This document shows, piece by piece, positions 2,070 through 63,471 of a stretch of DNA of 64,000 nt. The position numbers were made by a program, and so were the translations under genes. How positions within the stretch are numbered: position 1 is the stretch's first letter; each line of letters starts with the position of its first letter. Source of the stretch: Mesorhabditis belari (lineage: Eukaryota > Nematoda > Chromadorea > Rhabditida > Rhabditidae); contig CAUEEP010000089.1 in NCBI GenBank assembly GCA_958450365.1, forward strand, positions 434,001-498,000. The letters are read 5' to 3'. Below the pieces are notes generated by a model. It was not told the DNA's origin. It worked only from the letters and a program-made list of their open reading frames with translations, and ran no database searches.

Positions 2070-5000
2070 ATGGCAACAAACCATCGATTCAAAGAACGAT
2101 TTATTGGTCGAGGAGCAATGGGGGATGTGTTTGAATTGGAGGGACACAAACCGTTGGTTATTTTATTGAAAAATACCGTGTATACAAGAAAAGAGGTTGT
2201 AATGTACATAAAAATGAAGTGAGCTCAAAAATGTTCTTTATTGTCGTTTAACACCTTTAAACGACAATGTTCTCGGGTCCCCATCAAGTACTCCACAACT
2301 TTTGGTAGCTTTCATTTTTAATTTCTCTTAACTATGTAAACTCAAGGCTCACATATAAATACTTTTAATCGTGAAGAACAATATGGTTATTGGTAAGACT
2401 AAAGCTTTACCTATACACATTTGAAGAAATACGATATCGAAATTAATGGATTCTTCCTTTATTTAGCCCAGCTGTGATCAAATATATGTTTTGTGGCAAT
2501 GAAGCACAATTGAAGATCTTCAAAAATGAATGTGAAGCTTTAAAGGCCGTTTATCATGCAAATGTAGTGAGAATGTTATATACAGAAGAGAATGGAAGGG
2601 AGTTGGGAATTGTAATGGAATACTGCCAGAGGGGATCACTCCGAGATGGTTCAGATTCAAAGTATATTGTTATAGTTTACAGTTTAGTAATCTTCAATCC
2701 AAAAATCAGCTATTCAATGAACCCTGTTCTCACCTGGGGAATCCAATTATTTGATGCCATTGATCACATGTATCAGAAACACAAATTGGTACATCGAGAT
2801 ATCAAACCAGACAAGTAATATTCGGTGGTATAAATGTCGAAGTTCCATTCATTTATAGCATTTTTGTAACAAATGAATACCAGCTAAAGATTGGTGACTT
2901 CGGATTGGTAAAAGTAGTGGGAGATGGAACTGTTACGGGGACGTTTATTGGAACACAACGATATATGAGTCCACCTGAAATGAAGGAGGACGGGGTACAA
3001 CGGGATGTTTATGAACAAGTAAAGGAGGCTGATGTCTCGGTTAGTTTTACATTCTTTTCAATTCTATTCAAACATAAGAAATACTTATTCCAGAATTCCC
3101 ATCGAAATGATGTCTACAGTCTGGGACTTGTTATGTGGGAAATCATCGAAAGGAGGTATTCATCTTTAAATAGTGGCCTCCTTTGAGATATAACTAAAAC
3201 TTCGAAACAACATTATTATTGTTCTAGAACCATTTTCACAAACTATGAGAGATCTGGAGTGTTTGATCGTGAACAATTCTTGTTTGATATAGCACTCAAA
3301 CGCGTTACTGAAATCGAACCACCTGAATGTCAATCGGAAATTCAAAAAATCATCTCGAGGTTTGGATTCAAGATTTTCTTTTATCTTTTGAGAATCCACC
3401 TATCAGATGTACTAACTTTCAACGTATTCATCGTCCACCAGCTTCTGAAGTTTTGGATTCCCTTGCTCAAATGCAGAAAGTAAGCTTTTCTCAAAGAAGT
3501 AAAATTTCTCGTCTACTATAATATTGAGTTGGAAAGTATGGAAAGTACGCAAATTTCCTTTCACTTATTTTACCATTATTTCTTAGTTCAAACAACGAGT
3601 AAAATACTGCCGAAAAGCGAGTTAGTTTGTAGAAATACATTTCATATGTGGGTAATTAAACCAAACATAGCCGGCTGCATGCCAGAGAGTGGGCGTTTAG
3701 GCAGTTTACGCTGAGAGAACACTTATTTTGGAGATGTTTGTCCGGAGATATGGTAGTCCTAAGAATTCTACATAAACCATGAAAATTCTAGTTATTTTAG
3801 AGGCTATTTTAAATGAGTAAATAGGAGTAAAAGGAAATTTGTGAGATTTCATACTTCCCGACAGAATAGTTGAGTAAGTTTCCTTTTTTTGGAAATTTAA
3901 AACTTCTCAAATATAATGCCCTAGGCAAATGAATTCATCTCTTCACTCCCTTTTGATCCCACAGAAGATAAAGACCAGGAAAAATTAATGAAACCAATTG
4001 GATTTGATGATAGAAAAGAATGGGTTATGGTTGAATCTGAGGAAAGAAGATATGAAAAGAGATTCGAAAAGTCTGGAAGGCATATCTTCTTTGGAATAAT
4101 GCGATATAAACTCGGAACACTAAGTTCTGCTGAAAGAGAGAAATTCTTCAAAGAAGCGCCAAATATTGTTTCAAGATTAAAAGAAGAAACTCAGACATTC
4201 AAAGATGCTCGTTATGTGATTTGGGACATATTGGAGATAGAAGAAAAGAAGAAAAATCTACATGAAAAGAATATTTATGAAATATTTGAATTGTTTGTTT
4301 TGGGAGATTTTCTAGTACAGCAATGGCAAGAAAATACCGCTTTTGAATACCTTAAAAGTCACGAGGAAATCTGGTTACCAAGCTTTAGAAATTGGCGGAG
4401 GTGTGAGAATTCGATTAACAGTTTGAAAAAAGTAAAAAGAGAGACCTATACAACAAATTTCTATTTTCGATGTTTTATTTCTCAATTGACTGGTGAGGGA
4501 TGGATTCATATAAAATGGAATTTCTTTGTAATTGAAGACTTAAGATTATGGAAACGAATACCAGGACAATGGGTAGACAATCCAAGAACTGAAATCCGGA
4601 GCTATGAAATTGAAAATGAAGACAAAAAACATGAATTGCTTCATTTTTCTCATTACAAACAAATGCCTCTTGAACGCATAATTGATGGATTTAAGAAGCA
4701 ACAAGAAAAAATGGAAAATATTATAAAATTACACTTGAAATATCTGATTCCAATAAATGATTCAGAGAAGAATAATACTCCATTCAATATTAAATCACTT
4801 CTCGATGAGTCTTCTGAATATGAAAGACCTTCTAAAAGATCTAAAAGATCAACCTCTAAATTTGACGAAGAATCTTCTTATAAGCCCTATCCCTTCCCCC
4901 ACTACCTATTCCAATTAAGAAATCCTCCTCGTCGAATTTGTCAAAAGAAGCATACAGGGAAATGTCAAATGGATGGGTTTGGAAAAGTGAGAGGATGGCT

Positions 5001-5469
5001 ATCAGATTTACCTAAAGAATTGCACATTCCAGTATGTGGTCAAATCACGCAAGCCGAGGTCCGCGTTCTGGAAAGTTACATAGATTGTATAAGACCTGAT
5101 AGAGATCCGTCTCTTTATTTCATTAAACACCCATTTCTATTTCTTTGCTGCCAAAATCTCTTAAATATTCCATTTTTGATTCTCTTGGATCATCCAAACA
5201 ATTATGAAAATGGGGAAAGTATTCCTGGATTGGATTTCAATAGGAAACTTTATCATATTGATGTTGGAGTATTAAGAGAATACTTTCAAGAGTCAAAGCT
5301 TAATGAGATGGTCTATGGTTTGATGAAGAGTGACGGATGGAGACCCTACATCCGCTTGATTGATTATCAAGGGAATCCAAAAACAGAATGGCTGGAATTT
5401 GAGAGAGTGCCCTACTCGGCTTCCTATAGCAAATTCACTAAGCAAGAGGAGGCTATAATCAGTAGTTGA
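2070..5469 (+). CDS. Family gene A: kinase plus large unknown C-terminal domain
   Basis: My eight-exon model is 2070–2152, 2467–2648, 2688–2814, 2859–3039, 3094–3155, 3228–3359, 3407–3479 and 3925–5469, giving 794 residues with no in-frame stop. Kinase signatures are the Gly loop GRGAMGDV, AVIK with the ATP-binding Lys, the alpha-C Glu in NECEALK, HRDIKPDN (Asn supplied across a 44-nt intron), GDFGLVK, YMSPPE and NDVYSLGLVMWEI. The architecture recalls PEK/GCN2-like Ser/Thr kinases, but the assignment is loose. The last exon reads in frame upstream of its first ATG (3988) to the acceptor at 3925, so it is not a separate gene. It carries CQKKHTGKCQMDGF, LDHPNNYENGESIPGLDF and LIDYQGNPKTEW. All catalytic residues are present, so activity is plausible; substrate unknown. 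The exact donor of intron 1 is the least certain junction. Confidence 0.78.
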
Positions 5470-5669
5470 ATATGAAGAAGTTACTAAAAAGGAAAGACAA
5501 AGAAAAAAGGCTGCTTGCTCTGTATCCTAACCCTAGCCTTCCTGACTTCCCAATTTCCAGGGTCTTTATTTTACTAGTGAAATTCTTGGACTTTATGTGT
5601 CCTTATTTTGTTTTTTTTTCATTTCTTTCAAATGAATAATCTGTTTATCAAAAACAGAACGTTCTTTAT

Positions 5670-5900
5670 TCTTGAAATGGGGAAAGTAGTCTTGGATTTG
5701 ATCTCAACAAGAAACTTCATAAGGTTGATGTTGGAGTATTAAGAGAATACTTTCAAGAGTCGAAGCTCAATGAGAGGGTCTATGCTCTGCTCAAGCAGTA
5801 TGGATCAAACATTCGTTTGATTGATTATCAAGGGAAGCCAGAGACAGAATGGCTTGTGCTTGAAAAAGTGCCCGAATTCGACTTCCTATTCACTTAGCAA
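5670..5900 (+). pseudogene. C-terminal stub of a family copy, tandem to gene A
   Basis: About 200 nt after the stop of gene A the sequence re-enters a second copy of the last coding segment: GVLREYFQESKLNERVYAL, then LIDYQGKPETEW. It begins abruptly at the 'ATGGGGAAAGTAGTCTTGG' region directly after a copy of the 3' flank phrase 'GTTCTTTATTCTTGAAA'. Everything upstream is missing, so it is a truncated, dead copy. The join suggests unequal exchange within the duplicated unit. Confidence 0.8.
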
Positions 5901-7989: not shown

Positions 7990-8686
7990 CACATCTTCTT
8001 TCATCATTTCAGGTGGACTCATATATCGTGGCGTTCCAATAAGCATCCCCGTAACAGCCACTACTTTTACCAATGCAAAGTCACCAATCTTCAGCTGGTA
8101 TTCATTGGTCACAAAAATGCTATAGATGAATTGAACTTCGACATTTATACCATTGAATATTACTTGTCTGGTTTGATATCTCGATGTACCATATTGTGTT
8201 TCTGATACATGTGATCAATGGCATCAAATAATTGCATTCCCCAGGTGAGAACAGTGTTCATTGAATATGTAATTGTTGGATCAAGGATCACTAAAATGTA
8301 TATAAGATATAACGACACCAGTCCAATCACAACCTCCCTTGAGTGGTCCCTTCTGACAATATTCCATTACAATTCCTACTCTTTTCCCTTCTTCTGTATA
8401 TCGATACAATCCGACCACATTTACATGATAGATCTTCATCAAAGCTTTACATTCATTTTTGAAGATCATCAATTGTTCATCATTACCAAAAAACACATAT
8501 TTGATCACAGCTGGGCTAAATAAGGAAGCTCATGGTACAATATAACCTCTACAAAAGACTAAATATCGAGCATAGTAGTAAATAGATCAAAAATAACCAA
8601 CGATTTGTGTCGAATCAATTCATACGCTTCTCCATATGCTACTTGCCCAATACACTTTCCCAATACAACTTGGTTTGATGTTATCA
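7990..8686 (-). pseudogene. Kinase pseudogene B of the family
   Basis: Exons 1–4 of the kinase half are recognisable on −. The Met at 8686 starts the usual N-terminus. AVIKYVFFGN and HRDIKPDK are still visible. The defects point to decay: the glycine loop reads GQVAYGEA instead of GxGxxGxV, the activation motif reads GDFALVKVV (Gly of DFG lost), and a 12-nt in-frame gap removes the residues after VV relative to other copies. Similarity ends abruptly after YMSPPEM near 7990, so the C-lobe and the whole C-terminal domain are missing. Confidence 0.8.
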
Positions 8687-8844
8687 TTTGTCACAGATAA
8701 GGCTTTAACCTAAAGAAGTAATAATATGAAATATAAAAGAGGAGATGAAATTAGAATTAGAAAAGCAGCTAGAAGGTGAGGGCAAAGAATTAACAATTAA
8801 CTACTAACAACCATCATAAGAAAGACCAATTTTATGCATTTAAT

Positions 8845-9140: not shown

Positions 9141-9710
9141 AGAAATAGAAGACCGTGCTCAACGTTTTCCCTGGAGCGCTTCGTCACTTTCAACTGGAGC
9201 AAACGATTGCCGACATCTTCGAAAGCGAACTGGCCGACTTCACGATCAAGGTCTACAGCTGAGGTGGCAAAGAGAGATTTCACGGAAAGATTCGACAATT
9301 TCTTTATACAGTTAACAGTTGTGCCTAGATTAAACAGCTAATCCTTGAAGATTCAGCTTTGAACTGAGCTCTGCGAAGCACTACATCTAGCTACACTTAA
9401 CATTTGGCAGAGTTTATTTGCTCTTAAGTTTTCGAGTTAAGTTTTTAACTCGAAGCCCTTATTCGGATATATCGGAGAGCCGTGGTTAAAAAATCAGAAT
9501 GTACAAAGAAGCAAAATTGAATTTTACGGGTTATATTGCAAGATAGGATTGGTCGAATCAACAAAAAATATGATTTGACTGCATTTGAAAATAGTCGAGG
9601 CATTGAACAAAGCCTTATCTCACGCCTTTGTTCTTTGAATTGAAGTGTTGCGGTGTGGAGTGTTGCGTAGTCTAGCTTTGAACGCGTTTCTCTCGACACT
9701 GGTTTACGCT
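9141..9710 (-). repeat. Repeat R1, copy b, with a coding-like exon remnant
   Basis: From about 9300 to 9710 this is R1 in reverse. Next to it, + strand bases about 9160–9264 read ALRHFQLEQTIADIF then ESELADFTIKVYS. The same peptide, with third-position differences, is encoded in reverse at about 15260–15390 next to R1 copy c. That pattern suggests the repeat carried a protein-coding exon of unknown origin. I cannot name the family. Confidence 0.6.
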
Positions 9711-12720: not shown

Positions 12721-12959
12721 ACGTGATCAAAGCTACCGTAAGCGCAAAGGAAAAGTAATATTTTAAAGAAATGTTTCCCAATTTTCACATCCAACTCCCA
12801 AAAACACAAAACAGCACTCAATTGTTTTCATATTTCCCCCATTTTTCGGAATTCACCGGTCCTCCTGTTATTGTTTCCTTCCATTTACGGGTTTCCTTTA
12901 TTTATTGGTACTCATTTTTTTCTTTTCTCATCCCTTTCTCATCATCTCATTTCCTTCTT

Positions 12960-14215
12960 CCATATCCAATATTTTCTTGATCACATAACGAGCATCTTTG
13001 AATGTCTGAATTTCTTCTTTTAATCTTGAAACTATATGTGGGGCTTCTTTGAAGAACTTCTCTCTTTCAACAGATTTTAGTTTTCCGAGTTTATATAGCA
13101 TTCTAATTTTGATACAGCTGTTCATCAATGTATAACCTGTGATACCAAATCTATCCTCCTTGAATCCCTTTTCATATTTCCTTTCCTCTGATTCAACCAT
13201 AACCCATTCTGTTCTATCATCAAATCCAATTGGTTTCATCAGTTCTTTTTGGTTTTTATCTTCTGTGGGCATAAAAGGGAGTGAAGAGATGAATTGATTT
13301 GTCTAGGTTATTATATTTGAGAAGTATAAGATTTCAACAAAAAGGAAATTTACTCAACTATTCGGTTGGGAAGTATGCAACTTCGGAAATTCCCATTTAC
13401 TCCTTTAAAATAACCTTAAAAATAACGCCCACTCTCTGGCATACAGTCGGCCATGTTTGGCTCATCTACCAATGCATTTCTACAAACTAACTCGCTTTTC
13501 TGCAGTATTTTACTCACTGTTTGAACTACCAAGTTTCCCCTTACTCCTATTTACCTATTTTACCATTAAGATAGATAGAATAGAAAACAAAGATTGCTAT
13601 GCCAGAGAGTGGGCGTTTAGGCAGTTTTCACTCAGAGGACGCTTATTTTGGACATGTTAGTCCGCAGTTCAACGTGAAAATCATCACCAAGAAGTGCTTT
13701 TCTAATTGTTTTCAACATGAAATTTGCTGAAATTTTAAGCTTAACTACTTTAAAGTTTCCCCTGAAAGAAAGCAGAACTTTTGTGATGGAACACTGATTT
13801 ACATGCCATGTGAACACAAGTCAACTTCAATCCGGCGGTTCTCAGCTCTTTTGCACAAAAGCTTTCCAAACCCTAATACTTGGCAGCCCCAAGAATTCCA
13901 CACAAACCATGGAAGCTTTAGTGATTTTTATGGTAAAATAAATGAAGGCAAAGTTGCCAGTTTCATACTTCCCAACCCAAAATAGTAAACGAGAAGATGA
14001 ACTGCTCTTAGAAAAGCTTACTTTATATGTTTTAAGCAAATCCACAACTTCAGTAGCTTTTGGACGATGAATACGTTGAAAATTAGTAGATCTGATTGAT
14101 GGATTCTTAAAATATCAAGGAAAATCTTGAATCCAAACCTCGAGATGATCTCTTGAATTTCCGATTAACATTTAGGTGATTCGACTTCAGTAATACGTTT
14201 GAGTGCAATATCAAA
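12960..14215 (-). pseudogene. Kinase-family pseudogene C
   Basis: On −, parts of kinase exon 6 (about 14215–14140; FDIALKRITEVESPKC) and exon 7 (about 14085–14030), the long last intron, and the start of the last exon (13310 to about 12960: MKPIGFDDRTEWVMV, then FFKEAPHIVSRLKEE) are in the expected order. Exons 1–5 and most of the C-terminal domain are absent. The exon 6 break sits next to a short duplicate of last-intron sequence (compare 13925–13960 with 14205–14245), followed by a mariner fragment. Confidence 0.82.
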
Positions 14216-14229
14216 CTTTGCAACTTTGC

Positions 14230-14470: not shown

Positions 14471-14814
14471 TTTTTCAATAAACCATCTCGGGGAATTTGA
14501 TCATGAGATTGTGCGTCCATCTCGCTTGTTGTGCTATTCAGTACATCAATTCAAAGCATGCCAAATAATGAAACAATATTAGTGGCTTCGATGACATGTG
14601 TTATATATGTTCTAGCTTTTAACGACATTTTTATTGTCTTTTGCTAAGGTTAATTTTTCTTTCGAGTTCTTTTTACCAGCTGAACAATAACAATATACAC
14701 CAACTGGAAAAAGATACGCCAACGAACAGTTAATAATATGCATCCTGAATGGGTAGATGCGATGATGCATCCCCACGCTTTTTGTTCATAAAATTCATCT
14801 AACACCCTCAAGAA

Positions 14815-15400
14815 TAGCACTAAATCAAATCGAAGCGGTTTTCTTAGTAACTCGTTTCAAACAAAGACGGTTTCAGAAAGAAAGGTTCAAAATCAGTTTG
14901 ATGGCAATTTGATATGGCAGTGAATAAAAGCGCGAGATAAGGCTTTGTTGAAGACCTCGACTCTTTTCAAACGCAGCCAAATAATATTTTTTTTTTGGCT
15001 CGGCCAATTCTATAAATTGAATTTCGGTTTTTTTCTTTGTACATTCTGATCATTTAACCACGGCTCTTTGATATGTCTTCGTTAGTAAGGGCTTCGACTT
15101 CAAAAAATGAACTCAAGAACTTTGCCAAATGATAGGTGTAACTAGATGTCGTGTTTCACAGAGCTCAGTTCAGAGCTTAATCTTCAAGGATGAGCTGTTT
15201 ACTCAAAGCACAACGGTTAGCTGTATAGAGAAATTGTCGAATCCTTTAGCGAATTCTCTCCTTGCCACCCCAGCACAGCTGTAGATCTTGATCGTGAAGT
15301 CGGCCAGTTCGCTTGCTGAGATGTCGGCAATCGTTTGCTTCTGTTGAAAATGACGAAGCGCTTCAGGAAAAGCTTAAATAAATGACCATTATCGAGAAAA
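14815..15400 (+). repeat. Repeat R1, copy c, with reversed coding-like remnant
   Basis: Bases about 14820–15240 match copy a (about 310–770) and copy d. Bases 15260–15390 in reverse encode ALRHFQQKQTIADISASEL then ADFTIKIYS, the counterpart of the remnant beside copy b. The two occurrences lie in the same relative position to R1, so the coding remnant belongs to the repeat or was duplicated with it. Confidence 0.65.
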
Positions 15401-18829: not shown

Positions 18830-20876
18830 TTACTTTTTGGAACTTTCTTTCAATAATATTTCTTTAGGCAACATGTCAATAACACTTCGCATATTTTCGA
18901 TGCCCGAACTTCTATGTTCCTCGAGTCTCTTTTCAAATTTTCTTTCTTCAGGTTGAACCATAACCCATTCTGTCCTGTCATCAAATCCAATTGGTTTCAT
19001 CAGTTCTTTTTGGTCCCGATCTTCGGTGGGCATAAAAGGGAGTGAAGAGATGGATTGATTTGTCTAGGTTATTATATTTGAGAAGTATAAAATCTCAACA
19101 AAAAAGAAACTTACTATTGTGAAGGAAATTTATGTAACCTCGCAAATTTCTTTTCACTCCTAGTTTCTTATTTACCATTAAAATAGCTAAAATTTCGAAG
19201 GTTTATGTCGAATTCTTAGGACTACCAAGAATTCAAGTTTCAAAAATTTTTTGTGGTAAAATAGCTGAAAAAGGCCGGATTGACGTTGACTCATGTTCCC
19301 ATGCCATGTATACCCGTGTTCCATCACTAAGTTCCTCTTTCTTTCAAAATCTACAGCGGGAATTTTAAAATAGTTAACCTTAAAATCTCAGCAAATTTCA
19401 TGGCTCAAACAACGAGAAAAATATTAGAAAAATACTGCAGAAAACCAAGTTAGTTTGTGGAAAAGCCTTTCATGCTTGTGTAACCAGACACAGCCGGCTG
19501 TATTCCAGAGAGTGGGCGTTTAGGCAGTTTGCACTCTGAGAACGCTTGCTTTGGAGATGTTTGTCCACAGATCGGCGTGAACATCATCACCAAGAAGTAC
19601 TTTTATAATTGTTTTAAACATGAATTTACCTGAGATCTTAAGGTTAACTATTTTCAAGTTCCCGCTGTATATTTTGAAAGAAAGAAGAACTTTAGTGATG
19701 GAACACGGATTTTCATGGCATGTGAAAATAAGTCACCTTGAATCCGGTCGTTCTCAGCTATTTTACCACAATTGTTATTTTTATTGCAAAATAAGGAAAT
19801 AGGAGTGAAAAGAAATTGACGAGATTTCTTACTTTCCAACCCAATATAATAGTAAACAAGAAAATCAACTTCTTCGAGAAAAGCTTACTTTATATGTTTT
19901 AAGGATATCCAAAACTTCAGAAGCTGGTGGACGAAGAATACGTTGAAAGTTAGTACATCTGATAGTTGGATTCTTAAAATATAAAGGAAAATCATAAATC
20001 CATACCTCGAGACGATTTTTTGAATCTCTGATTGACATTCTGGTGATTCGATTTCAGTAACACGTTTGATGGCAATATCAAATACTAACTGGTCACGCTG
20101 AAACCCTCCAGACATCTCATAGTTTGTGAAAATGGTTCTAAAACAGTGAAAATTTTGTTTTGAAGTCTTATAAATATCTCAAAGGAGGTCGCTATTTATA
20201 CATGGATACCTCCTCTCGATGATTTCCCACGTAACAAGACCCAGACTGTAGACATCATTTCGATGGGAATTCTGGGATGAATATGTCTTATCATTAAATA
20301 GAAAAGAAGTTAAAACTAACCGATACATCAGCCTCCTTTATTTGTTCATAAACATCCCGTTGTACCCCATCCTCTTTCCTTTCAGGTGGACTCATATATC
20401 GTTGTGTTCCAATAAACGTCCCCGTAAAGGTTCCATCTCCCACTACTTTTACCAATCCGAAGTCACCAATCTTCAGCTGGTATTCATTAGTCACAAAAAT
20501 GCTATAAATGTATTGAACTTCGACATTTATACCACTAAATATTACTTGTCTGGTTTGATATCTCGATGTACCAATTTGTGTTCCTGATACATGTAACGAA
20601 TGGCATCAAATAATTGGATTCCCCAGGTGAGAACAGTGTTCATGAATATGTAATTGTTGGATCAAGAATGACTAAACTCTAAGATATAACAATTCCAGTC
20701 CCATCCCAACCTCCCTTGAGTGGTCCCTTCTGACAATATTCCATTACAATTCCCACTTGTATTCCTTCTTCTGTATATCGATACAATCGGACAATATTTA
20801 CATGATAGATCTTCTTCAAAGCTTCACATTCATTTTTGAAAATCTCTAATTGTTGATCATTTCCACAAAGCATATA

Positions 20877-20880
<4 letters not shown>
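18830..20880 (-). pseudogene. Kinase-family pseudogene D, abutting MCM4
   Basis: Kinase exons 2–7 are present on − (KYMLCGNDQQLEIFKNE; HRDIKPD; KIGDFGLVKVVGDGT; NDVYSLGLVTWEI; ATG-less exon 6 with AIKRVTEIESPEC; exon 7). Exon 1 and the AVIK Lys region are replaced by MCM4 sequence. One base is missing in exon 3 near 20640: other copies have TATTCAATGAAC, this one TATTCATGAAC, so the frame shifts. The last exon starts at about 19065 (MKPIGFDDRTEWVMV) and is cut at about 18830. The gene cannot make a full product. Confidence 0.85.
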
Positions 20881-22029
<1,149 letters not shown>

Positions 22030-26000: not shown

Positions 26001-26652
26001 AATAAACGTCCCCTTAACAGTTTCATCTTCCACCACTGTTACCAATCCAAAGTCACCAATCTTCAGCTGGTATTCATTGGTCACAAAAATCCTATAAATG
26101 AATTGTACTTCGACATTTATACCACTGAATATTACTTTTCTGGTTTGATATCTCGATGTACCATTTGATGTTTCTGATACATGTGATCAATGGCATCAAA
26201 TAATTGGATTCCCCATGTGAGAACGGTGTTCATTGAATATGTAATTGTTGGATCAAGTATCACTAAACTCCAAGATCTAACAATACCGGTCCAATCCCAA
26301 CCTTCCTTGAGTGTTCCTCTCTGACAATATTCCATTACAATCCCCACTTTTATTCCCTCTTCTGTGTATCGATACAATCGGACAAGATTTTCATGATAGA
26401 TCTGCTTCAAAGCTTCACATTCTTTTTTGAAGAACTCCAATTGTGCTTCATTGCCACAATGCATATATTTGATCACAGCTGGGCTAAACAAAGAAACTTA
26501 TGGTACAATGCAACCTCTACAAAAGACTTAATATTGAACATAGCAGTGAATAGATCCAAAATAACCAACGGTTCGTGTCCAATCAATTCATACACTTTTC
26601 CATATGCTCCTTGCCCAATATAACGTTCACCAGATGGATTGGGTGATGCCAT
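23070..26652 (-). CDS. Tandem-kinase gene E (pseudokinase-like domain plus kinase domain)
   Basis: My 15-exon model on − is 26652–26570, 26483–26302, 26262–26136, 26091–25911, 25861–25800, 25654–25523, 25484–25412, 25369–25098, 24857–24673, 24555–24429, 24384–24246, 24188–24127, 23920–23795, 23752–23680, 23270–23070; it closes in frame at 674 residues. Domain 1 has GQGAYGKV, AVIKYMHC, HRDIKPEK and GDFGLVTVV: the Asn five residues after HRD is Lys, so catalysis is doubtful. The joining exon reads LIRPIGFNGEIDE, homologous to the start of the family's C-terminal domain, then opens domain 2 (GRAGYGRTV, TIIKSIE, HRDIKLEN, GDFGTAREV, YMNPD, NDVYSMGLVLWEI), which keeps all catalytic residues. It ends with a 60-residue tail, LIRPIGFNGGGERV onward, far shorter than the other members. 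Confidence 0.75.
23960..24021 (-). other. tRNA-like sequence in an intron of gene E
   Basis: In reverse it shows a D-arm-like TAGCTTAGTGGGTAGAGC and a T-loop-like GGTTTCGAATC. The T stem does not pair well and the acceptor stem is unclear. It lies between kinase-2 exons 5 and 6. A decayed tRNA or a SINE head is more likely than a working tRNA gene. Confidence 0.4.
24857..24925 (+). repeat. 21-bp tandem repeat, about 3 units
   Basis: Units of CCTATAAGGGATAAGTGTTTA start at 24857, 24878 and 24899, the last diverging into a shorter GGATAAGTG repeat. The array starts exactly at the exon 9 acceptor of gene E, whose TTATAG is part of the first unit. Each unit supplies another possible acceptor. 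Confidence 0.85.
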
Positions 26653-43827: not shown

Positions 43828-45045
43828 TCAATTTGGGCCAAACCTGAAAAATATGTTCTCACGGGGATGTTGGTTCACATTGAATAGCTCGTGAACGCCG
43901 AGTGTCTTTCGTTGATTCTCCAATTGATTCGTTGATACAGGTAAGCAACCAAAGCCATAATCACAATCAATCGACATGCTCTCAATTCTAGATTGGTCAT
44001 AGCTTTCCGGATGATCGAGTATCAGCCGCTTTTCTGTCCCGTGCCAATGGAAATGCCAATCGTGGTGTTGCCGAATCTCGTCGAAGCGAATCTTCAAAAG
44101 CCGTCCCTCGTACGGTGTCTTTAACACCTCCGCCCCTTTCCGCTTCACGAAAAAAAACAATTTACAGATTTTCGTGTACACCTCGATCAACGATTCGCTG
44201 TCCGCACACCCTTGAATACAGCTGCAGATTCCGATTCTTTCTGAAAAATCGATCTCTTTCGGAAAGCCGGCTGTTTGAATTGGCTGACTATTGAGGCAAT
44301 TGTGTGTATGACTCGGTGGCCACTTCAGCCGAAACATGTAGTCATTTATTTGAAATTTGAACTTCTTGTTCAACGATCTGTGATAGAATATTGTTGCCGC
44401 GTGCAACTGTTTCACTCCATTGGCCACCAACTCTTGTAACTCCTCGCAACCGGTCCTGGCCCGGGGCTGCGGGTTGGCCTGGCTCACTATTCGTGCATTG
44501 GTAATCCCCCCTTCCAAATAAACCAAAACCTTGTCTCCATTTTCTTCATATTTGACCAAACTCCCCGTATGGTCACCTGCTAAGAAAGTACATGGCTTTG
44601 GACCGGAATTCGTTCGAATCATGAAGCAATCAAATTCAAACTCGATCAAATAGCCGAATTCGATGAATTTCACAAGGCTTTTATCTCTTTCTTTCAACAA
44701 CTCGAACAAATCCCAGCACCCGTAGCTGAAATGAGTCTCCGAGTTGAGATTCAGAGAACTTTTGGGCACTTTTGGCACTTTCGCCGTATCAATTAACACC
44801 TCGAAGATCAATTGAAAGAGCTTGGCTTGGTAGTTGGAATCGGCGATGAGCATCTTCTCAAAACGCCGCTCGTCTTTAGACAATCTCAGATTATGTGATG
44901 GCTTTTGCATTTCGTCGGGAAATTTCAAAAGTTTAGCATAGTTTCCCCGATGTTGAGCCACAATCTCGCCAAATGGCAAATCGATTTGGCTCACGTCGTC
45001 GTAGATTATTTTCCGAAAGTATTTCCTGTGAAAATCGGCTTCCCT
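43828..45045 (-). CDS. Divergent homologue of the family's C-terminal domain
   Basis: A continuous ORF of 388 codons from an ATG at 44994; the frame stays open upstream to about 45043, where a TTTCCAG acceptor-like site occurs, so an upstream exon may exist. It is not annotated by any known domain I recognise, but several blocks align with the C-terminal exon of genes A, H and K in the same order: DERRFEKML with EERKYEKRF, WDLFELLKERD with IYEIFELFVLGD, NDYMFRLKWPP with HYIFQLRNPP, FPKEIDFSERIGIC with LPKELHIPVCG, and LILDHPESYDQSRIESMSID with LILLDHPNNYENGESIPGLD. Base usage is less AT-rich than in the young copies. No kinase exons were found upstream; SLY1 exons lie there instead. It may be a stand-alone or ancestral form. 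Confidence 0.72.
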   Translation of the reverse strand, partial: READFHRKYFRKIIYDDVSQIDLPFGEIVAQHRGNYAKLLKFPDEMQKPSHNLRLSKDERRFEKMLIADSNYQAKLFQLIFEVLIDTAKVPKVPKSSLNLNSETHFSYGCWDLFELLKERDKSLVKFIEFGYLIEFEFDCFMIRTNSGPKPCTFLAGDHTGSLVKYEENGDKVLVYLEGGITNARIVSQANPQPRARTGCEELQELVANGVKQLHAATIFYHRSLNKKFKFQINDYMFRLKWPPSHTHNCLNSQPIQTAGFPKEIDFSERIGICSCIQGCADSESLIEVYTKICKLFFFVKRKGAEVLKTPYEGRLLKIRFDEIRQHHDWHFHWHGTEKRLILDHPESYDQSRIESMSIDCDYGFGCLPVSTNQLENQRKTLGVHELFNVNQHPRENIFFRFGPN

Positions 45046-45194
45046 ATTCTCGCAGCTGGAAACGAATCTCTACCCAATGTCACTATTGTTTTAGAAATTT
45101 AAAACAATAAGCTAAACAATTAGATTAAACAAGTTCTGCAAAGAGAAATAACCATAAAGACTCTATGAAAACTTTGAAAAGAATCGTAAAGCTA

Positions 45195-45671: not shown

Positions 45672-46584
45672 CAAATCTCCTTGAATGGCTTCAGCGACCA
45701 GGGGAAACGCATTTCCCTTAACAGTAAATCAGTTTATGTTTAAATAGAATTATGCATTACCTTATGCTGCGTCCAAAGACGATCGTGTCCACAATGCAAA
45801 TCGTAGTCCACCTTCTTGCCCTTGTCCGGCATGCTGACTCGATTCTGATCAAGCCCAAGTACATCATGAACCAAAGCTTGATCTGTCCAAGTGTGATGAA
45901 GCATTGTTGCCAAATCTGCAGATCTGAACATAAAGCATTCTTGAAAAACCTCTTTTTAAAGCATTTGAGAATTCAATACAAACCTATCCGCAATGATAAG
46001 TACAGGACGAGAGCTACTAAGTTGCCCAGCTCGAACACTTTCAAAGGCGAAGAGATTATTGCGTGCATCCCGTAAGTTGTCTCGGAGTTTTTGATCAAGC
46101 CTCTAAAACAAAAGTAATAGCAAAAAATAATTCAAAAAGGATTACAATTGCAATTTGTTCCGCAGCATTGTCTTTGGAAGCACGAATCACTGGCACCAAA
46201 CCAAGAGTAGCACACATCTGATAAAAGTCCTTGATTGTTGTTGAAGAATTTTTACCGAAAAGAGACCATCCGCGATGGATTCAATCATAGATTTCATTTG
46301 AGCGTCGGATGTTGAAGGATCATTGATTGCTAAATTAATTCATATAAAAATGAAACGAAAAACAAACCATAATAGGACATGGGACTTGCTTCAGAGTATC
46401 TTTTCAATACGATAAAAGCGATAAAAGTTTTCATACAATCCCTAAAATCTTCTTGAAAAAGTATTCATGGGATAAAATCACCAGCTTCAGGTCATTGCAG
46501 AGAAGTTCCACGTTTTCATCATTTGGGGCGACAAAGTAAACGGCTGGCATGTCAGGCAATTGTTCACGTTTGGAGCCAACCAAC
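45672..46584 (-). pseudogene. SCFD1: SLY1/SCFD1 (Sec1/Munc18) fragment, 5' and middle part
   Basis: Exons on − read LPDMPAVYFVAPNDENVELL (46584–46482), LYENFYRFYR (from 46441), INDPSTSDAQMKSMIESIAD (46329–46256), MCATLGLVPVIRASKDNAAE (46217–46146), RLDQKLRDNLRDARNNLF to LIIADR (46101–45984), LATMLHHTWTDQALVHDVLG to RLWTQHK (45923–45761), and GNAFPLVAEAIQGDL (45716–45672). These are consecutive blocks of SLY1, the SM protein that partners syntaxins in ER–Golgi transport. From family knowledge, some 65–70 residues between the second and third blocks seem absent. The N-terminus stops exactly where the mosaic duplicate at 46593 begins, and no C-terminal exons follow downstream. The gene is therefore broken here. 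Confidence 0.82.
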
Positions 46585-46592: not shown

Positions 46593-47096
46593 GAAAAGTA
46601 GTTAAACTTCATAAACAAAGTAATGTAATAAACAATGAGGCAGTTCAATAAGGCTTATTCCTCTCTTAGTGGATCTCTGCATTCATTCCCAACTTGTTAT
46701 TATTATTATTAATTGTTTGACTTCTTTTTTACAGATATTCGCTACACGGCAAATAATGCTTGAGAAAACAAGGCCTTGCATTGCTTGACCATAAAGGCGA
46801 ATTCCGGCATTGAAAAACTACAGCTTAATTTTGAAAAAACCATCATCGAGAAATCTGTGTAGTTCTGAAATAAAGAAGATCGCGCAAAGGTCAAAAGGTC
46901 TAAATTCCTTCAAACATTTTGGCTGTCATATATTTGTATTCGGCAGCAATAAAATATTCAGCTAATTGATTAAAAAGTTATGCTGGGAGACTGTTGATCG
47001 TTGTCGTACGTAAAAGCACCAAGGAACCACGAAGTTCAAGAAGTTTTTGATTTGCAACTATTCTCCGACCTGATTGCGATTGGGGTTTTTCTGCTT
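46593..47096. repeat. Mosaic segmental duplicate
   Basis: Bases 46593–46757 copy 49653–49817 (last intron of the RNase H gene plus about 17 nt of its last exon). Bases 46751–47096 copy 51899–52246 (DNA upstream of the F-box gene). Both matches are nearly identical and in direct orientation, and they join at an AAT-rich overlap. The donor pieces lie about 2 kb apart, so the block was assembled from two non-adjacent sources. Confidence 0.85.
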
Positions 47097-47138
47097 CAAC
47101 GTTCCACATGCATTGCGGATGTATATTTGCTTTTTCAG

Positions 47139-51898: not shown

Positions 51899-52246
51899 TA
51901 ATGCTTGAGAAAACAAGGCCTTGCATTGCTTGACCATAAAGGCGAATTCCGGCATTGAAAAACTACAGCTTAATTTTGAAAAAAAACCATCATCGAGAAA
52001 TCTGTGTAGTTCTGAAATAAAGAAGATCGCGCAAAGGTCAAAAGGTCTAAATTCCTTCAAACATTTTGGCTCTCATATATTTGTATTCGACAGCAATAAA
52101 ATATTCAGCTAATTGATTAAAAAGTTATGCTGGGAGACTGTTGATCGTTGTCGTACGTAAAAGCACCAAGGAACCACGAAGTTGAAGAAATTTTTGATTT
52201 TCAACTATTCTCCGACCTGATTGCGATTGGGGTTTTTCTGTTTCAC
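51899..52246. repeat. Source segment upstream of the F-box gene, duplicated at 46751–47096
   Basis: Near-identical to 46751–47096, with a few substitutions and a 3-nt A-run difference. It begins about 120 nt upstream of the F-box start codon, so it may contain that gene's promoter. The small ORFs in it are similar in both copies only because the copies are recent. Confidence 0.8.
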
Positions 52247-54372: not shown

Positions 54373-54745
54373 TTAAAGTTGTCCACCAAGCCGTGAAAGC
54401 TAAAAAACAAAGTTGAATATGATTGAAGCCGAAATTATACCTGTTCGATAAACTGCGATGGGCTAACAAGTTCAGTGCAACCATAAGTCACACGTTGAAC
54501 TCCTTTATCGCGTCCCCATTCAACAAGTTTTTCATACTCCACGTAATTTCCGCCCCCGACCACGAAAAGAATGACATCCGCCGGAAGATGAGGTCGCAAT
54601 TTCATCGATCTGAAATAAAAAATAAAAGTTCCACTGTTAATAAACGCACTCTTTGCTTGGCTGATGCATCATTCTCGGATCGAAATAGCGTAAATTATCT
54701 TCGGCTTGTGTTTGACTGCTTGCCATCGAACTCATTCCTACTATT
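54373..54745 (-). pseudogene. SCFD1: SLY1/SCFD1 C-terminal fragment
   Basis: On − the exons read AEDNLRYFDPRMMHQPSK (to 54650), SMKLRPHLPADVILFVVGG, GNYVEYEKLVEWGRDKGVQR, VTYGCTELVSPSQFIEQ (54609–54441), and LSRLGGQL then a TAA stop (54399–54373). These match the C-terminus of SLY1 (…YRYFDPKML… FVVGGGNYIEY… LxQLGQK). It lies about 8 kb upstream, in the direction of transcription, of the fragment holding the earlier part of the protein, so the two cannot form one collinear gene. Upstream it runs into an exon candidate around 54830 (LTNKFFKASKRAP) that I cannot place. Confidence 0.8.
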
Positions 54746-55124: not shown

Positions 55125-55440
55125 GAGTCTTGAGCAAAAGAAAGTGGCCGAATTCGGCTTTCTATTCACTGACCAAGAGCAGAAGCTAGACTTAATAGTT
55201 GAAGATAAAGAAGTTACTAAAAGAGAAAGAGAAAGAAGAAATCCTTCTTGCTTTGTATCCTAACCGTAGCCTTCCTGACTTCACCATTTCAGGAGTTTTT
55301 ATTTTACTAGTCCAATTTTTGAACTCTATCTGTCTTTATGCCACTTGTTATTTTTTCTTTTTCTTCGAATGAATAAAGTATTTATTCTAATAGAGCATTG
55401 AAATATCTACAAAAACGTTCATAAAACGTACTTTATCTTC
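55125..55440 (+). pseudogene. 3' end stub plus 3' flank of a family copy
   Basis: Starts within the last few codons of a family gene (VAEFGFLFTDQEQKLDLIV style end), followed by the family 3' flank (AGTTACTAAAAGAGAAAGAG… TTTTTGAACTCTATCTGTC). Only the very end of the coding region is left. Next to it a second fragment begins. Confidence 0.65.
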
Positions 55441-55885
55441 AAGTTACAAGTTGGGAAGTTACGTGAATTGTGTAAGATCTGCTAGAAATCTGACTTTTCG
55501 CCTCATGGAAGACTCATTTCTATTTCTTTATTGTCAAAATCTCTTAGATATTCCATTTTTGATTCTCTTGGATCATCCAAATAATTATGAAAATGGGGAA
55601 AGTATTCCTGGATTTGATTTCAAGAGCAAACTTCATCATATCGATGTTGGAGTATTAAGAAAATACTTTCAAGAGTCAAAGCTCAATGAGAGAATTTATG
55701 CTTGGAGCAGGGGTGGGGAATGGACACCCTACCCCTGCTTGATTGATTATCAAGGGAATCCAAAAACAGAATGGCTTCGGTTTGAGAGAGTGCCGTATTC
55801 GGCTTCCTATAGCCAATTCACGAACCCACAGTCGTTGAAGATAAAGAAGTTACCTAGGAGAAAGACAAAGGAAAAAAAATGCTGA
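55441..55885 (+). pseudogene. C-terminal-domain fragment of the kinase family
   Basis: Starts inside the C-terminal domain at YVNCVRSARNLTFRLME and continues FLYCQNLLDIPFLILLDHPN, then RKYFQESKLNERIYAW and LIDYQGNPKTEWLRFERVPY to the usual end. It lacks everything upstream. The 145 codons are open, but the sequence has no start signal and begins directly after another copy's 3' flank, the same tandem arrangement as at 5670. Confidence 0.82.
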
Positions 55886-55899: not shown

Positions 55900-56370
55900 A
55901 ACCGTAGTCTTCCCGACTTCACAATTTCTCGATTTTGTATTTTACTTCTGAAATTTTTGAACTTTATGTGTCTTTATGCTTGTTGTTTTCTTTCCTTTTT
56001 TTCCAGATCAATAAAGTGCTTATCTAAACCAGAACGTTCTTTATTCTTGAAATGTTCACAAAACCTAGCATAAAACGTACTTTCGGACCACTCTCAGTAA
56101 GGAATGCAATTTTCAGATCAACACACACAAATAAGAGAAATCAGATTTTCACCAAAAGGGGAATTGGAATGGAACTTTTATAATCTTCACAAACACTTTC
56201 AAACTTATTCTAAAGAATTAAACATGACTATGTTTAATGTGTCCAAACCTACTCACTACTTAGTGTTAGTTTTTCCACTATTTCCTCTGACTTTTGAACG
56301 GATTTCTGTTTCTTTTTTGATTTGTAGATATTCATTTACATCCATAGTCAAATAAATTTATTCGATATGG
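55900..56370 (+). repeat. Shared 3' flank of the kinase family, copy 3
   Basis: Matches 5985–6440 and 63545–64000 through the ACACACAAATAAGAG, TTTTCACCAAAAGG, TTAAACATGACTATG and GGATTTCTGTTTC blocks. An AATAAA-like signal occurs near 56008. Confidence 0.75.
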
Positions 56371-56525
56371 TTGGATCTGAAGAAAGGAAATATATCATGA
56401 AGATAGAATATCGGAATTTGGAATAACGGCTCTAGAATAAAGGGAGATAAACTCGGAACACCAAATCCTGTTGAAAGAGACAATTTCTACAAAGAAGCAC
56501 CAAGTATTGTTTCAAGATTCAAAGA
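56365..56525 (+). pseudogene. Scrap of the last exon of the kinase family
   Basis: Reads VGSEERKY, then, with frame breaks, ERDNFYKEAPSIVSRFKEG, which aligns with EERKYEKRF … EREKFFKEAPNIVSRLKEE. About 160 nt remain, with deletions. It is cut on the right by a mariner element. Confidence 0.75.
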
Positions 56526-56529
56526 AGGA

Positions 56530-57135
56530 CATGTGCAAACTGGTTTGTTAAATTCCGTTCTGGGGTTGAATCTTCAAAGTCGAACGGAGGGTCATCCAGG
56601 CCTTCTTTTCGCGAAATAGCAGAAGAGCTATCAGTTGATCATACGATAATACTCGAACATTGCATACAGTTGGGTTTAAACCGTATTAGAGACTTGGATT
56701 CCACATGATTTAACGAAACCCAAAATGGCAATGTGTCAGAAATCAGTGCTGCTCATCTTTCTTGCTACGGGTGCAAGTCTTTTTTTACCCCGTATTGTGA
56801 CGAAGGATGAAAATGGATTCTAACCGTCAACTTTCAAAGAAGGCGCCAATGGGTTACTGAGGGGAAAAAGCCCGAACCCGACGTCAAGCCAAATGTGCAT
56901 GAGAAGAAGTTTATGCTCTCGGTGTTCTGGGATTTGGAAGAAAATACTCGCTTCAACTCTCTGATATTCATTGTGGTGTTGGTCAGTCCAGTGGGTGCCA
57001 CCTACTCGCTCGAAGCAAGGAAGTCCCGATTGGGGGATGTGAGGAAAGCGCTGGAAAATGTGCGTTTTTTGGATCACTTGCCTACATCTAAAGAATCTCT
57101 ACTTTTCTTTTCTTTTCCAATTTAGAATAGCTTTC
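56530..57135 (+). mobile_element. mariner transposase pseudogene
   Basis: In shifting frames on + the sequence follows the mariner order: WFVKFRSGVESSKS, PSFREIAEELSVDHTIILEH, LGLNRI, WIPHDLTKP, PRIVTKDENGF (compare IVTGDEKW), MGY-GKKPEPDVKPN, KKFMLSVFWDLE. At least two frameshifts and several stops break it, and the DDD catalytic core is incomplete. It is inserted against a kinase-family scrap. A partial copy of its 3' side is at 32665–32800. Confidence 0.82.
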
Positions 57136-59000: not shown

Positions 59001-59019
59001 ACAGAACGAAAACATCCCA

Positions 59020-59860
59020 AGGATAACACTAAACCAAATCGAAGGGGTCTCCTTCCTTAATCGTTGAACAAAGAGAGTTTCAGAAAGACAGATTCAAGAT
59101 CAAACGTGACAATTTGATATGGCGAGTGAATAAAAGCGAGAGATAAGGCCTTCCTTTTTCAAGACTCTGACTCTTTTCAAACGCAGCCCGATAATATTTT
59201 TTGTTCACTCGACTTGCACGAATCCTATCTTGCAGCATAATTTGAAAAATTCAATTTTGCTTCCTTGTTCATTTTGATTATTTAACTACGGCTCTTCGAT
59301 TTGTCTTCATTAATAAGGGCTTCGACTTAAAAACTTAACTTAAGAACAAATAAACTTTGCCAAATGATACGTGTAACTAGATTTCGTGATTTGCAGAGCT
59401 CAGTTCAGAGCTGAACCTTCAAGGATTAGCTGTTTAGTCTAGGCACAACGGTTAGCTGGATCGTAAAACTTCTTATGAGAAGATAAAATATAAGGACTCA
59501 GGTCATATGATCAGCCAGATAAGGGCCCCTACAGGGTGGCTGATGAGAAATGCCGGAACGCTTGTTACTTCTCGAGGTTACTTCGAAATCTTATGAGCAA
59601 CCTGCTGAAATGTTGCTATCAGTCTAGGGACTCTAAATATAGGCATGAATGTTACAGACAATAACTGGCAAATTTTCTTGCAATTCTTGTGCTTTTCCAA
59701 AAGGCATCTTGCTAGAGGTCGATTCTAAGCTTCTCATACCAATCGAGGGTTTATTTATTTGGCTAAATTTCCATTTTTTGCTCCTAAATGTTGTCCTCAA
59801 GGTTTTCTTTCTGAAATAATTTGGAATTGGCTCCAAGTGACGATTATAAAAAAACTGCAA
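59020..59860 (+). repeat. Repeat R1, copy d
   Basis: Matches copy a from about 320 to 790 and continues through the GTGGCTGATGAGAAATGCC and TTACTTCTCGAGG blocks to GATTCTAAGCTTCTCATACC (about 59720). It is the second most complete copy and confirms that the element is at least 800 nt long. Confidence 0.72.
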
Positions 59861-59934
59861 TCTTCTTTCTGGTTCTCAAAGCCCTTTTTTGGATTAAGTC
59901 GAGTTTAAGAAACACAAAACAAAAAATGAATTTA

Positions 59935-60155: not shown

Positions 60156-63100
60156 ATGACAACATCCAATCCATTTGTTGAACGTTATATTGGGGATGGA
60201 GCAATGGGGCAAGTGTATGAACTGATTGGACACAAACCGTTGGTTATTTTTGATCTATTCACTGCTATGTTCAATAATTAGTCTTTTGTAGAGGTTGTAT
60301 TGTACCATGAGCTTCTTTGTTTAGCCCTGCTGTGATCAAATATATGTTTTGTGGAAATGATGCACAATTGGAGATCTTCAAAAATGAATGTGAAGCTTTG
60401 AAGAAGATCTATCATATAAATGTTGTCCGATTGTATCGATATACAGAAGAAGGAATAAAAGTGGGAATTGTAATGGAGTATTGTCAGAAGGGACCACTCA
60501 AGGGAGGTGGGGAGTAGATTCATATTGTGATATCTTATAGTTTAGTGATTCTTGATCCAACAATTACATATTCAATGAACACTGTTCTCACCTGGGGAAT
60601 CCAATTATTTGATGCCATTGATCACATGTATCAGAAACACCAATTGGTACATCGAGATATCAAACCAGACAAGTAATATTCAGTGGTATAAATGTCGAAG
60701 TTCAATTCATTTATAGCATTTTTGTGACCAATGAATACCAGCTGAAGATTGGCGACTTTGGATTGGTAAAAGTAGTGGGGGATGGAACTGTTACGGGGAC
60801 GTTTGGAATTGGAACACAACGATATATGAGTCCACCTGAAATGAAAGAGGATGGGGCACAACGGGATGTTTATGAACAAATAGAGAAGGCTGACGTATCG
60901 GTTAGTTTTACATTCATTTCCATCCAATGATAAGATATATTCATTTCAGAATTCCCATCGAAATGATGTCTACAGTCTGGGACTTGTTATGTGGGAAATC
61001 ATCGAAAGGAGGTTTTTCATGTTTGAATAGTGAGCTCCTTTGTGATCTTAATAAGATTTCCAAACAAGATTTTCATTGTTTTAGAACAATTTTCACAAAC
61101 TATGAGGTATCTGGAATGTTTTTTGATCGTGACCAATTATTGTTTGATATAGCACTCAAACGTGTTACTGAAATCGAATCACCTGAATGTCAATCAGAAG
61201 TTCAAGAAATCATCTTGGGGTTTGGATTCAAGATTTTCTTTTATATTTTATGGATTCATCTATCAGATGTACTAATTTTCAACGTATTCATCGTCCAAAA
61301 GCTGCTGAAGTCTTGGATTTCCTCAAACAAACACAGAAAGTAAGCCTTTCTAAAAGAAGTAGAATTTCTCGTCTACTATTATATTGAGTTGGAAAGTATG
61401 TAACCCGGTAAATTTCTTTTGACTTATTTTACCATTATGATGAATAGAATTTTGTTTTATGCAGGATTCTTAGGATTAACAAGTACGAAAGTTTGTAAAT
61501 CTTTTGTGGCAAAATAACTGAGAACGGTCGGATTGAAGTTGACTTATGTTCACATGGCATGTAAATCCGTGTTCCATCGCGAAAGTTCTTCTTTCTTCCA
61601 AAATATACAGGGGAAACTTTAAAATAGCTTGCCTTAAAATTTCAGCTAAATTCATGTTTAAAACAATTAGAGAAGCACCTTTTGGTGATGATTTTCACGC
61701 CGACCTGCGGACAAACATCTCCAGAATAAGGGTCCTGAGTGAAAACTGCCTGAACGCCCACTCTCTGGCATAGCTATCTTTGGTTTCTATTCTATCTATT
61801 TTAATGGTAAAATAGGTAAATAGGAGTAAAGGAAATTTCGTAGCTTAAACAACGAGTAAAATACTGCAAAAAAGTAAAAAAAGTAAATGGTAAAATAAGT
61901 AAATAGGAGCGAAAAGAAATTTGCGTACATACTTCCCAAACGCCTTTCTTTAAAAAAACGTAGAAATTTTATACTTCTCAAATATAATAACCTAGGCAAA
62001 TGAATTCATCTCTTCACTCCCTTTCATGCCCACAGAAGATAAAAACCAAAAAGAATTGAAGAAACCAATTGGATTTGATGACAGAACAGAAGGGGTTATG
62101 GTTGAATCTGAGGAAAGGAAATATGAAAAGAGATTCGAGGCAGGTAGATGGGATCACATGGGGTTTGGATTCAACAGATCGGTCAAAAGTATAATGCGAG
62201 CTAAACTCCGAACACTAAATTATGCTGAAAGAGAGAGATTCTACAAAGAAGCACCAAATATTGTTTCAAGATTAAAAGAAACTCAGACAAAAGAAACTCA
62301 GACATTCAAAGATGCTCGTTATGTGATTCAGGAAATATTGAGGGTAGAAGGATGGGAGGAAAATCTACATGAAAAGGATATTTATGAAATATTTGAATTG
62401 TTTGTTTTGGGAGATTTTAAAAAACAGGGCCTGGTAGAAAACGATGCTTTTGTACTTCTTAAAAGTCACGAGGAGATTTGGACACAAAGTTTTTACATTT
62501 GGGAATGTTGTGCGGAGCTGATTGACGATTTCACAAAAATAAAAAGAGAGACATACACAACCAATTTCTATTTTCGCTGTTTTATTTCTCAATTGACTGG
62601 TGAGGGATGGATTCATATAAAAAGGGCTCAGTTTGTAAGTGAAGACTTAAGATTATGGAAAGAAATACCAGGAAAATGGGTAGACAATCCAAGAACTGAG
62701 ATCTGGAGCTATGAAATTAAAGATGGAGACAAAAGACATGAATTGCTTCATTTCTCCCATTACAAACACATCCCTCTTGAACGAATAATTGAGGCATTTA
62801 AAAAACAACAAAAAAGAGTGGAAAATACCATAAAATTAAACTTGAAATTTCTGACTCCAATAGAAGATTCGGAGAAAAATAATGTTCCATTTAATATTCA
62901 ATCACTTCTGGATGAATCTTCTACATATAAAGGATTTGATGGACCCCATCCCTTCCCCCACTACATATTCCAACTTAGAAATCCTCCTCGTTTAATTTGT
63001 CAAAATCATTCAGGGAAATGTCAAATGGATGGGTTTAGAACCATGAAAAGATGGTCAAAGTTACCTAAAGGATTATACATGCCAGTATGTGGTAAAGTCA

Positions 63101-63471
63101 CGGAAGATGGGGTTTGGGTTCTGGAAAATTACATGGATTGTATCAGCTCTCATAGAGATCTGACTTTTGATTTCGGGCCATTCCCATTTCTATTTCTTTG
63201 CTGCCAAAATCTCTTAGATATTCCATTTTTGATTCTCTTGGATCATCCAAATAATTATGAAAATGGGGAAAGTATTCCTGCATTTGATCTCAAGAAGGAA
63301 TTACATCATATTGGTTTTGGAGTATTAAGAAAATACTTTCAAGGGTCAAAGCTCAAGGAGAGGGTCTATGCTTTGATCAAGATGGAATGGACGACACCCC
63401 ACATTCGTTTGATTGATTATCAAGGCAATCCAAGAACAGAATGGCTTAAGTTTGGGGCCGTGGCCGAATGA
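60156..63471 (+). CDS. Family gene K: kinase plus large unknown C-terminal domain
   Basis: My eight-exon model is 60156–60238, 60325–60506, 60546–60672, 60717–60900, 60950–61011, 61085–61219, 61267–61339 and 61996–63471; it closes in frame at 773 residues. Landmarks are GDGAMGQV, PAVIKYMFCGND, HRDIKPDN, GDFGLVKVV, a 1-residue insertion giving GTFGIGTQRYMSPPE, and NDVYSLGLVMWEI. The C-terminal exon has KKPIGFDDRTEGVMV, REYFQ replaced by RKYFQGSKLKERVYAL, and IRLIDYQGNPRTEW. Intron 2 (60507–60545) contains an in-frame TAG and must be spliced. The exon 5 donor (GTTTTT) is weaker than in sister genes. AATAAA lies at 63679–63684. All catalytic residues are present. Confidence 0.78.

Follow-up and report, generated by a model that had tools for sequence, protein, structure and literature searches.

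In plants, a single serine/threonine (Ser/Thr) kinase type occurs as receptor-like, cytoplasmic and tandem proteins that serve immunity as sensors, relays and decoys, and the kinase family described here combines receptor, soluble and doubled forms in an analogous way. The plant kinases carry other ectodomains, and we claim no common ancestry with them. A second described system, which we compare by description only, is that of the krma kinases, nematode kinase genes reported as mobile cargo of Maverick transposons in a meeting report (PMC10680173). We analysed a stretch of 64,000 nucleotides (nt) from the semi-asexual nematode Mesorhabditis belari (assembly GCA_958450365.1, contig CAUEEP010000089.1, positions 434,001 to 498,000 of the forward strand), hereafter the window, in which three intact genes, A, H and K, each join a kinase to a long C-terminal region. 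The species is auto-pseudogamous (PMC7433073), and two papers describe its biology (PMC7433073, PMC10456839). Our searches of the Mesorhabditis, Mesorhabditis-kinase and immunoglobulin (Ig)-receptor literature turned up no account of the present kinase family.

Structure of genes A, H and K

We rebuilt the three genes from their splice sites. They have two parts: exons 1-7 encode the kinase (280, 281 and 282 amino acids (aa) in A, H and K, respectively), and exon 8 encodes a tail and the C-terminal region. In each gene the seven introns are all GT-AG, the phases (2, 1, 2, 0, 2, 2, 0) are common to the three, and the spliced frames have no internal stop. The existence of three intact genes of this kind, proposed in an earlier prediction made from the letters of the window alone (the original prediction), was borne out by these open frames and identical phases. 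Positions are those of the window.

2070-5469, + strand: gene A, 8 exons, 794 aa
2070-2152, 2467-2648, 2688-2814, 2859-3039, 3094-3155, 3228-3359, 3407-3479, + strand: gene A exons 1-7 (kinase), with GT-AG introns and an open spliced frame
3480-3924, + strand: gene A intron 7, phase 0, 445 nt, GTAAGC donor, CCCTAG acceptor
3925-5469, + strand: gene A exon 8, tail of about 34 aa and then the C-terminal region, 514 aa and stop, open frame
35091-38413, + strand: gene H, 8 exons, 817 aa
35091-35176, 35263-35444, 35484-35610, 35655-35835, 35885-35946, 36019-36150, 36198-36270, + strand: gene H exons 1-7 (kinase)
36271-36802, + strand: gene H intron 7, phase 0, 532 nt
36803-38413, + strand: gene H exon 8, tail and C-terminal region, 536 aa and stop
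60156-63471, + strand: gene K, 8 exons, 773 aa
60156-60238, 60325-60506, 60546-60672, 60717-60900, 60950-61011, 61085-61219, 61267-61339, + strand: gene K exons 1-7 (kinase)
61340-61995, + strand: gene K intron 7, phase 0, 656 nt
61996-63471, + strand: gene K exon 8, tail and C-terminal region, 491 aa and stop

The Gly loop, the Lys, HRD and DFG can be read in the translations of all three genes; gene A has AVIK, HRDIKPDN and DFG, and we take HRDIKP to be the mark of a Ser/Thr-type kinase. The kinase of gene A matches 780 PDB sequences at E ≤ 1e-10, the best being NEK2 (2.5e-21). Chains of NEK2, EGFR and B-Raf score nearly the same (79-75 bits), and there is no clear best named family.

The link between the two parts is intron 7. 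It has phase 0 in all three genes and reads CAGAAA/GTAAGC at the donor and CCTAG/GCAAAT at the acceptor, whose own TAG closes the exon-8 frame upstream. Exon 8 starts 21 (A) or 10 (H and K) codons ahead of its first Met. Judged on the sequence, the phase-0 intron was thus rightly placed by the original prediction between kinase exon 7 and the last exon; the junction letters it gave for every copy hold in A, H and K, whereas two of the fragment copies open with T-N-Q and not A-N-E. In two M. belari gene models from other contigs, P0001 and P0002, the kinase reads directly into ANEFISSLPF or TNQFISSLPF, both joins being gene predictions. Judging from the sequence, kinase and C-terminal region form one gene in A, H and K. 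If they were two genes, the kinase would end inside intron 7 and the last exon would start independently at its own ATG. An unspliced kinase would indeed reach a stop 6-15 codons past exon 7, and residue 11 or 22 of exon 8 is a Met that could serve as a start, but the stretch ahead of this Met is conserved and belongs to the kinase tail of the family, and relatives hold kinase, tail and C-terminal region within one predicted protein. We regard two separate genes as highly improbable.

The C-terminal region: content, evolution and proposed function

The first 34 or so residues of exon 8 (to PIGFD and slightly beyond) are a kinase tail, which also occurs in tandem and receptor-type members of the family described below. 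Placed by eye, PIG/PLG tails lie behind the kinase in 10 of the 15 proteins inspected (P0001, P0002, P0005, P0006, P0007, P0008, P0009, P0010, P0011 and P0016); by the same inspection we found none in P0004, P0012, P0013, P0015 and P0018. The unrecognised part of the last exon can therefore be taken to begin after PIGFD and to span some 450-500 residues. We agree with the original prediction that it matches no domain that we could name: exon 8 of A, H and K matches no Pfam family, and the C-terminal region no PDB sequence, at E ≤ 10. The C-x3-H-x3-C motif that had been attributed to the C-terminal domain is present in A and H only, whereas H-x3-C is conserved. In K the motif is C-x2-H-x3-C, in P0011 it is C-x1-H-x3-C, and a fragment at 31320-31961 has Arg for the first Cys.

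A hidden Markov model (HMM) made from A, H and K alone found the post-tail part of P0011 (1.3e-18), P0007 (3.5e-16) and P0009 (2.1e-11), where the best of 1000 shuffles had an E-value of 0.04. Like A, H and K, these three join kinase, tail and a related C-terminal region in one protein, with 47% identity in the searched kinase region and 22-25% identity to exon 8 of K. The gene models of P0007 and P0009 stop short of the Cys/His part. The region thus predates the cluster. The idea of a recent family with a novel domain must thus be divided: the A, H and K copies are young, whereas the C-terminal region is older and more widespread, being found on other contigs in P0007, P0009 and P0011.

The reading frame of exon 8 has been kept. 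When A, H and K are aligned pairwise as DNA, gap runs have a length divisible by three in 22 of 24 cases in exon 8 and in 13 of 29 cases in intron 7 (each gene enters two of the three pairs, and these counts are not independent). Random change would be expected to bring about 8 stops per lineage into exon 8, and none is observed in A, H or K: when half of the observed changes were placed at random in 2000 runs, only 1, 0 and 1 runs were stop-free. Gap runs in threes and the absence of stops indicate that selection holds the exon-8 frame in all three genes. The ratios of nonsynonymous to synonymous change (dN/dS, Nei-Gojobori; pairs A-H, A-K and H-K) are 0.48, 0.40 and 0.41 for the kinase (bootstrap intervals 0.31-0.74, 0.26-0.61 and 0.24-0.73) and 0.71, 0.82 and 0.94 for exon 8 (0.52-1.01, 0.60-1.14 and 0.69-1.29), with exon 8 above the kinase in 0.920, 0.998 and 0.996 of the resamplings. 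Exon 8 thus evolves faster than the kinase, as the fast evolution put forward originally would have it. We do not claim positive selection: dN exceeds dS in 8 of 24 blocks of 70 codons, but dS within these blocks is small (0.03-0.18). Synonymous distances among the copies are 0.16-0.30, which points to young copies. Together with partial copies that contain stops, this fits the earlier picture of recent duplication and partial decay.

Structure prediction, one of the checks proposed with the original prediction, yielded a low-confidence model of exon 8 of K and no firm known fold; an AlphaFold2 model of exon 8 of gene A, made from seven close sequences, was discarded (mean predicted local distance difference test score, pLDDT, of 37). 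In the K model, pLDDT averaged over tens of residues is 51-79 between residues 61 and 280, and residues 58-284 form five long helices and a short one, seven strands and a closing helix, which suggests, with low confidence, a helical bundle followed by a possible PH-like barrel. A PH-type domain consists of seven strands and a helix. This arrangement raises the alternative that a known module, such as a DH/PH-type exchange factor or another arrangement of the PH superfold, has diverged to give the C-terminal region, which would then not be a new domain. In a Foldseek search with this low-confidence model, the top two rows are DH/PH modules (E 0.088 and 0.13, TM-score about 0.12), and 17 of the 50 best of 304 rows are DH/PH, PH, RanBD, FERM or PTB structures when classed by title; VIA Z is at most 7.1. 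The lack of a clear fold match is no evidence for a new fold, and we hold a diverged PH-superfold module to be a tentative reading, on the unlikely side.

Since a constrained kinase is joined to a faster-changing region, we propose that the latter binds a partner which itself changes. We favour, with moderate confidence, the reading that A, H and K are real soluble Ser/Thr kinase genes whose C-terminal region docks to, and is switched by, a fast-changing partner, and so gates or aims the kinase. The constrained, motif-complete kinase would give a stable catalytic output. The C-terminal region, which may comprise a helical bundle, a possible PH-like barrel and a Cys/His-containing end, would offer a contact surface that changes while its frame is kept, and would dock to the fast-changing partner; binding would switch this region and thereby gate or aim the kinase. 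The partner could be pathogen-related, reproductive or selfish. To the observed gene structure, kept frame, kinase motifs, rates and the family make-up read from gene models, this proposal would add enzyme activity, docking, gating and the partner, which we infer.

Several points weigh against this proposal. The fold of exon 8 is not settled, the K model from nine sequences having a mean pLDDT of 50 and a predicted template modelling score of 0.50. The bootstrap intervals of kinase and exon 8 overlap in all three pairs, if barely for A-K and H-K, and a dN/dS near 1 in exon 8 (upper bounds 1.01, 1.14 and 1.29) would also fit relaxed constraint. In P0001 and P0002, the tail leads into a second kinase from outside the clade of A, H and K and not into the C-terminal region. 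A, H and K themselves are absent among the proteins returned by two protein-database searches, so the public gene models do not back the fusion for these three, although kinase-only predictions shorter than about 449 residues would escape the length rule of the search made with kinase and tail. The case for the fusion in A, H and K is made from their DNA. Public gene predictions appear to miss the C-terminal region in the copies studied here.

A kinase family of M. belari

The search with the kinase and tail of gene H returned 36 proteins at E ≤ 1e-15, of which 14 are from M. belari and sit on contigs of 13 different lengths. Five of the other 22 rows carry an organism label (a ciliate, a grass and three bacteria), none of them a nematode, and the best row outside the M. 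belari set is P0014 (4.0e-35, 30% identity). Our protein-database searches thus saw the family in no species but M. belari. A tree of 25 kinase rows contains a family group of 19, among them the long-branched P0004 (support 91/93, just under the threshold that the tool marks with a star). Inside it, seven kinases cluster tightly (100/99), namely those of A, H and K and the first ones of P0001, P0002, P0005 and P0006. The tree does not fix the order of the older branches. We read A, H and K as the youngest branch of this family, to which receptor-type and tandem kinases also belong.

We assigned the kinds of family members by reading the gene models of M. belari. P0007, P0009 and P0011 are soluble and carry both tail and C-terminal region behind the kinase, and P0016 is a kinase with a long low-complexity extension. 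P0005 and P0006 are tandem kinases, as are P0001 and P0002, in each of which PF00069 is matched in two stretches. The tandem-kinase relative E that was proposed in the window proves to be the annotated P0005: its first 28 residues lie at 26652-26569 and its last 40 at 23192-23073 (both on the - strand), letter for letter, its stop codon follows there, and further pieces are identical.

23070-26652, - strand: gene E, tandem kinase, P0005 (596 aa), with a tail behind each kinase (residues 225 and 549)

Six proteins of the same clade are of receptor type (P0008, P0010, P0012, P0013, P0015 and P0018). They differ from A, H and K in having an ectodomain and one strong hydrophobic segment ahead of the kinase. 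In the five proteins whose Gly loop was found, this segment starts 49-84 residues upstream of the loop. HRDIKP is readable in 4 of these 6 models. Pfam matches to Ig domains are limited to two that miss the Pfam cut-offs, I-set in P0008 (4e-4) and V-set in P0012 (8e-4), with none in P0010, P0013, P0015 and P0018. The ectodomain of P0012 also matches Ig chains, by title, in most of the best 60 of 261 PDB rows (best E 0.0025). Ser/Thr-type receptors with Ig ectodomains would be unusual in animals. Some receptor-type models end within the kinase or shortly past it, the others continue into unrelated-looking sequence, and none shows the C-terminal region by reading; a C-terminal exon may have been missed where they end. 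P0018 has a weak RING-type zinc-finger match at residues 587-636, after a truncated kinase, which is either a fusion or an annotation artefact.

This composition bears on what the family does. The original prediction named defence or reproduction; we can only infer such roles, and nothing in the analysis separates the two. The family might be an innate-immune one, in which receptor-type kinases sense pathogens, soluble ones relay the signal and tandem ones are decoys, as in plants. That one clade, with support below the star, holds all three kinds and that fast C-terminal evolution goes with copy turnover would fit this, but the plant parallel is an analogy and the Ig matches concern 2 of the 6 receptor-type proteins, both below the cut-off. 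We consider an immune family rather doubtful. The stronger version, in which this private clade does for an animal what the kinase immune network does for plants, with Ig-ectodomain receptors, soluble relays that carry a new, fast-evolving recognition region, tandem decoys and turnover by duplication and decay, seems improbable to us. Sperm kinases have expanded in worms, and the family could alternatively act in sperm or egg activation. This activation is unusual in this auto-pseudogamous species, which would account for the fast evolution; the biology of M. belari (PMC7433073, PMC10456839) agrees with such a role, but the window sequence carries no germ-line pointer, and we find a reproductive role about as unlikely as an immune one.

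Neighbouring sequence and implications

Using tblastn with gene H, we found eight partial copies in the window, close to the ten or so fragments first counted. The copies are dispersed and lie in both orientations.

5502-5891, + strand: 3' end of exon 8, immediately following gene A
7990-8687, - strand: kinase exons 1-4, with stops in the aligned frame
12931-14216, - strand: kinase exons 6-7 and the first 124 or so aa of exon 8
18833-20906, - strand: kinase exons 2-7 and the first 77 or so aa of exon 8
31320-32012, + strand: second half of exon 8, continuing into other sequence
33546-34016, - strand: end of exon 8, with one stop in the aligned frame
55424-55882, + strand: end of exon 8
56366-56538, + strand: short early piece of exon 8

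Repeats with 77-83% identity also occur in the DNA that precedes kinase copies (1-1050, 9166-9636, 14800-15371 and 59011-59880), so the duplicated units include non-coding DNA.

We scanned 109 open reading frames (ORFs) of the window against Pfam, namely 108 of the 133 listed at ≥ 66 aa and one more, with 25 listed ORFs and shorter exons outside the scan; on re-checking, 105 of the 108 agreed letter for letter with the list and three differed in letters. The families found, in full, are Sec1, MCM, Transposase_1, RNase_H, RapZ-like and DDE_3. A Transposase_1 match in one ORF (4e-12) and a weak DDE_3 match at 27297-27530 on the - strand (0.0064) are remains of DNA transposons. These results bear on the possibility that the family is selfish cargo, that is, krma kinases moved between nematodes by Maverick transposons. 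In its favour are the reported transport of krma kinases by these elements (PMC10680173) and the dispersal of the window copies in both orientations. Unlike the krma setting, none of the 109 window ORFs that we scanned is of Maverick type, which weakens this explanation; in addition, there is no exon-8 relative among viral contigs (152 pattern matches), and M. belari is the only nematode named among the matches of the search with kinase and tail. We judge the cargo explanation very improbable.

Other features lie between the copies. An exon at 43831-45069 (- strand) is identical, over all its 413 residues, to the end of P0003, and the annotation joins it to Sec1-family exons (45743-46217, - strand). 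P0004, 74% identical to this orphan exon, joins a relative of it to a divergent kinase. The orphan-exon gene is possibly mis-joined or chimeric. We considered the orphan exon and P0004 as distant copies of the C-terminal region, first suggested by the order F-x-L-x2-PP ... LDHP-x2-Y, and dropped them: pairwise shuffle Z against this region is -0.7 to 2.5, and the hhalign probability is 1.9%. An HMM that contains the tail gives 6.4 bits to P0004 and 9.5 bits to P0016, versus 4.3 for the best of 1000 shuffles; with the post-tail HMM, P0004 scores 4.7 bits where the best of 3000 shuffles reaches 8.5. Neither P0016 nor the orphan exon is among the best 25 rows of that HMM. A Sec1-family piece at 54438-54668 (- strand) matches the end of the profile (528-575) and another at 45743-45955 (- strand) its middle (210-269). 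On the minus strand the profile-end piece is thus upstream of the profile-middle piece, and between them lies a 98%-identical repeat of 265 nt (46834-47098 and 51981-52245); by this order, the Sec1 pieces look rearranged or duplicated. An isolated 69-aa match to the MCM P-loop domain (4e-15) is found at 21072-21278 (- strand). Rfam and tRNA scans of the window found nothing.

The analysis exposes a practical fault, since three intact genes of about 800 residues are not among the predicted proteins returned by the searches. If our reading is true, a kinase family that our searches found in one nematode species unites receptor-type kinases, tandem kinases and soluble kinases whose C-terminal region is unrecognised and evolves fast. 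It would then be a concrete place to ask why signalling genes turn over so rapidly in an animal that is auto-pseudogamous.

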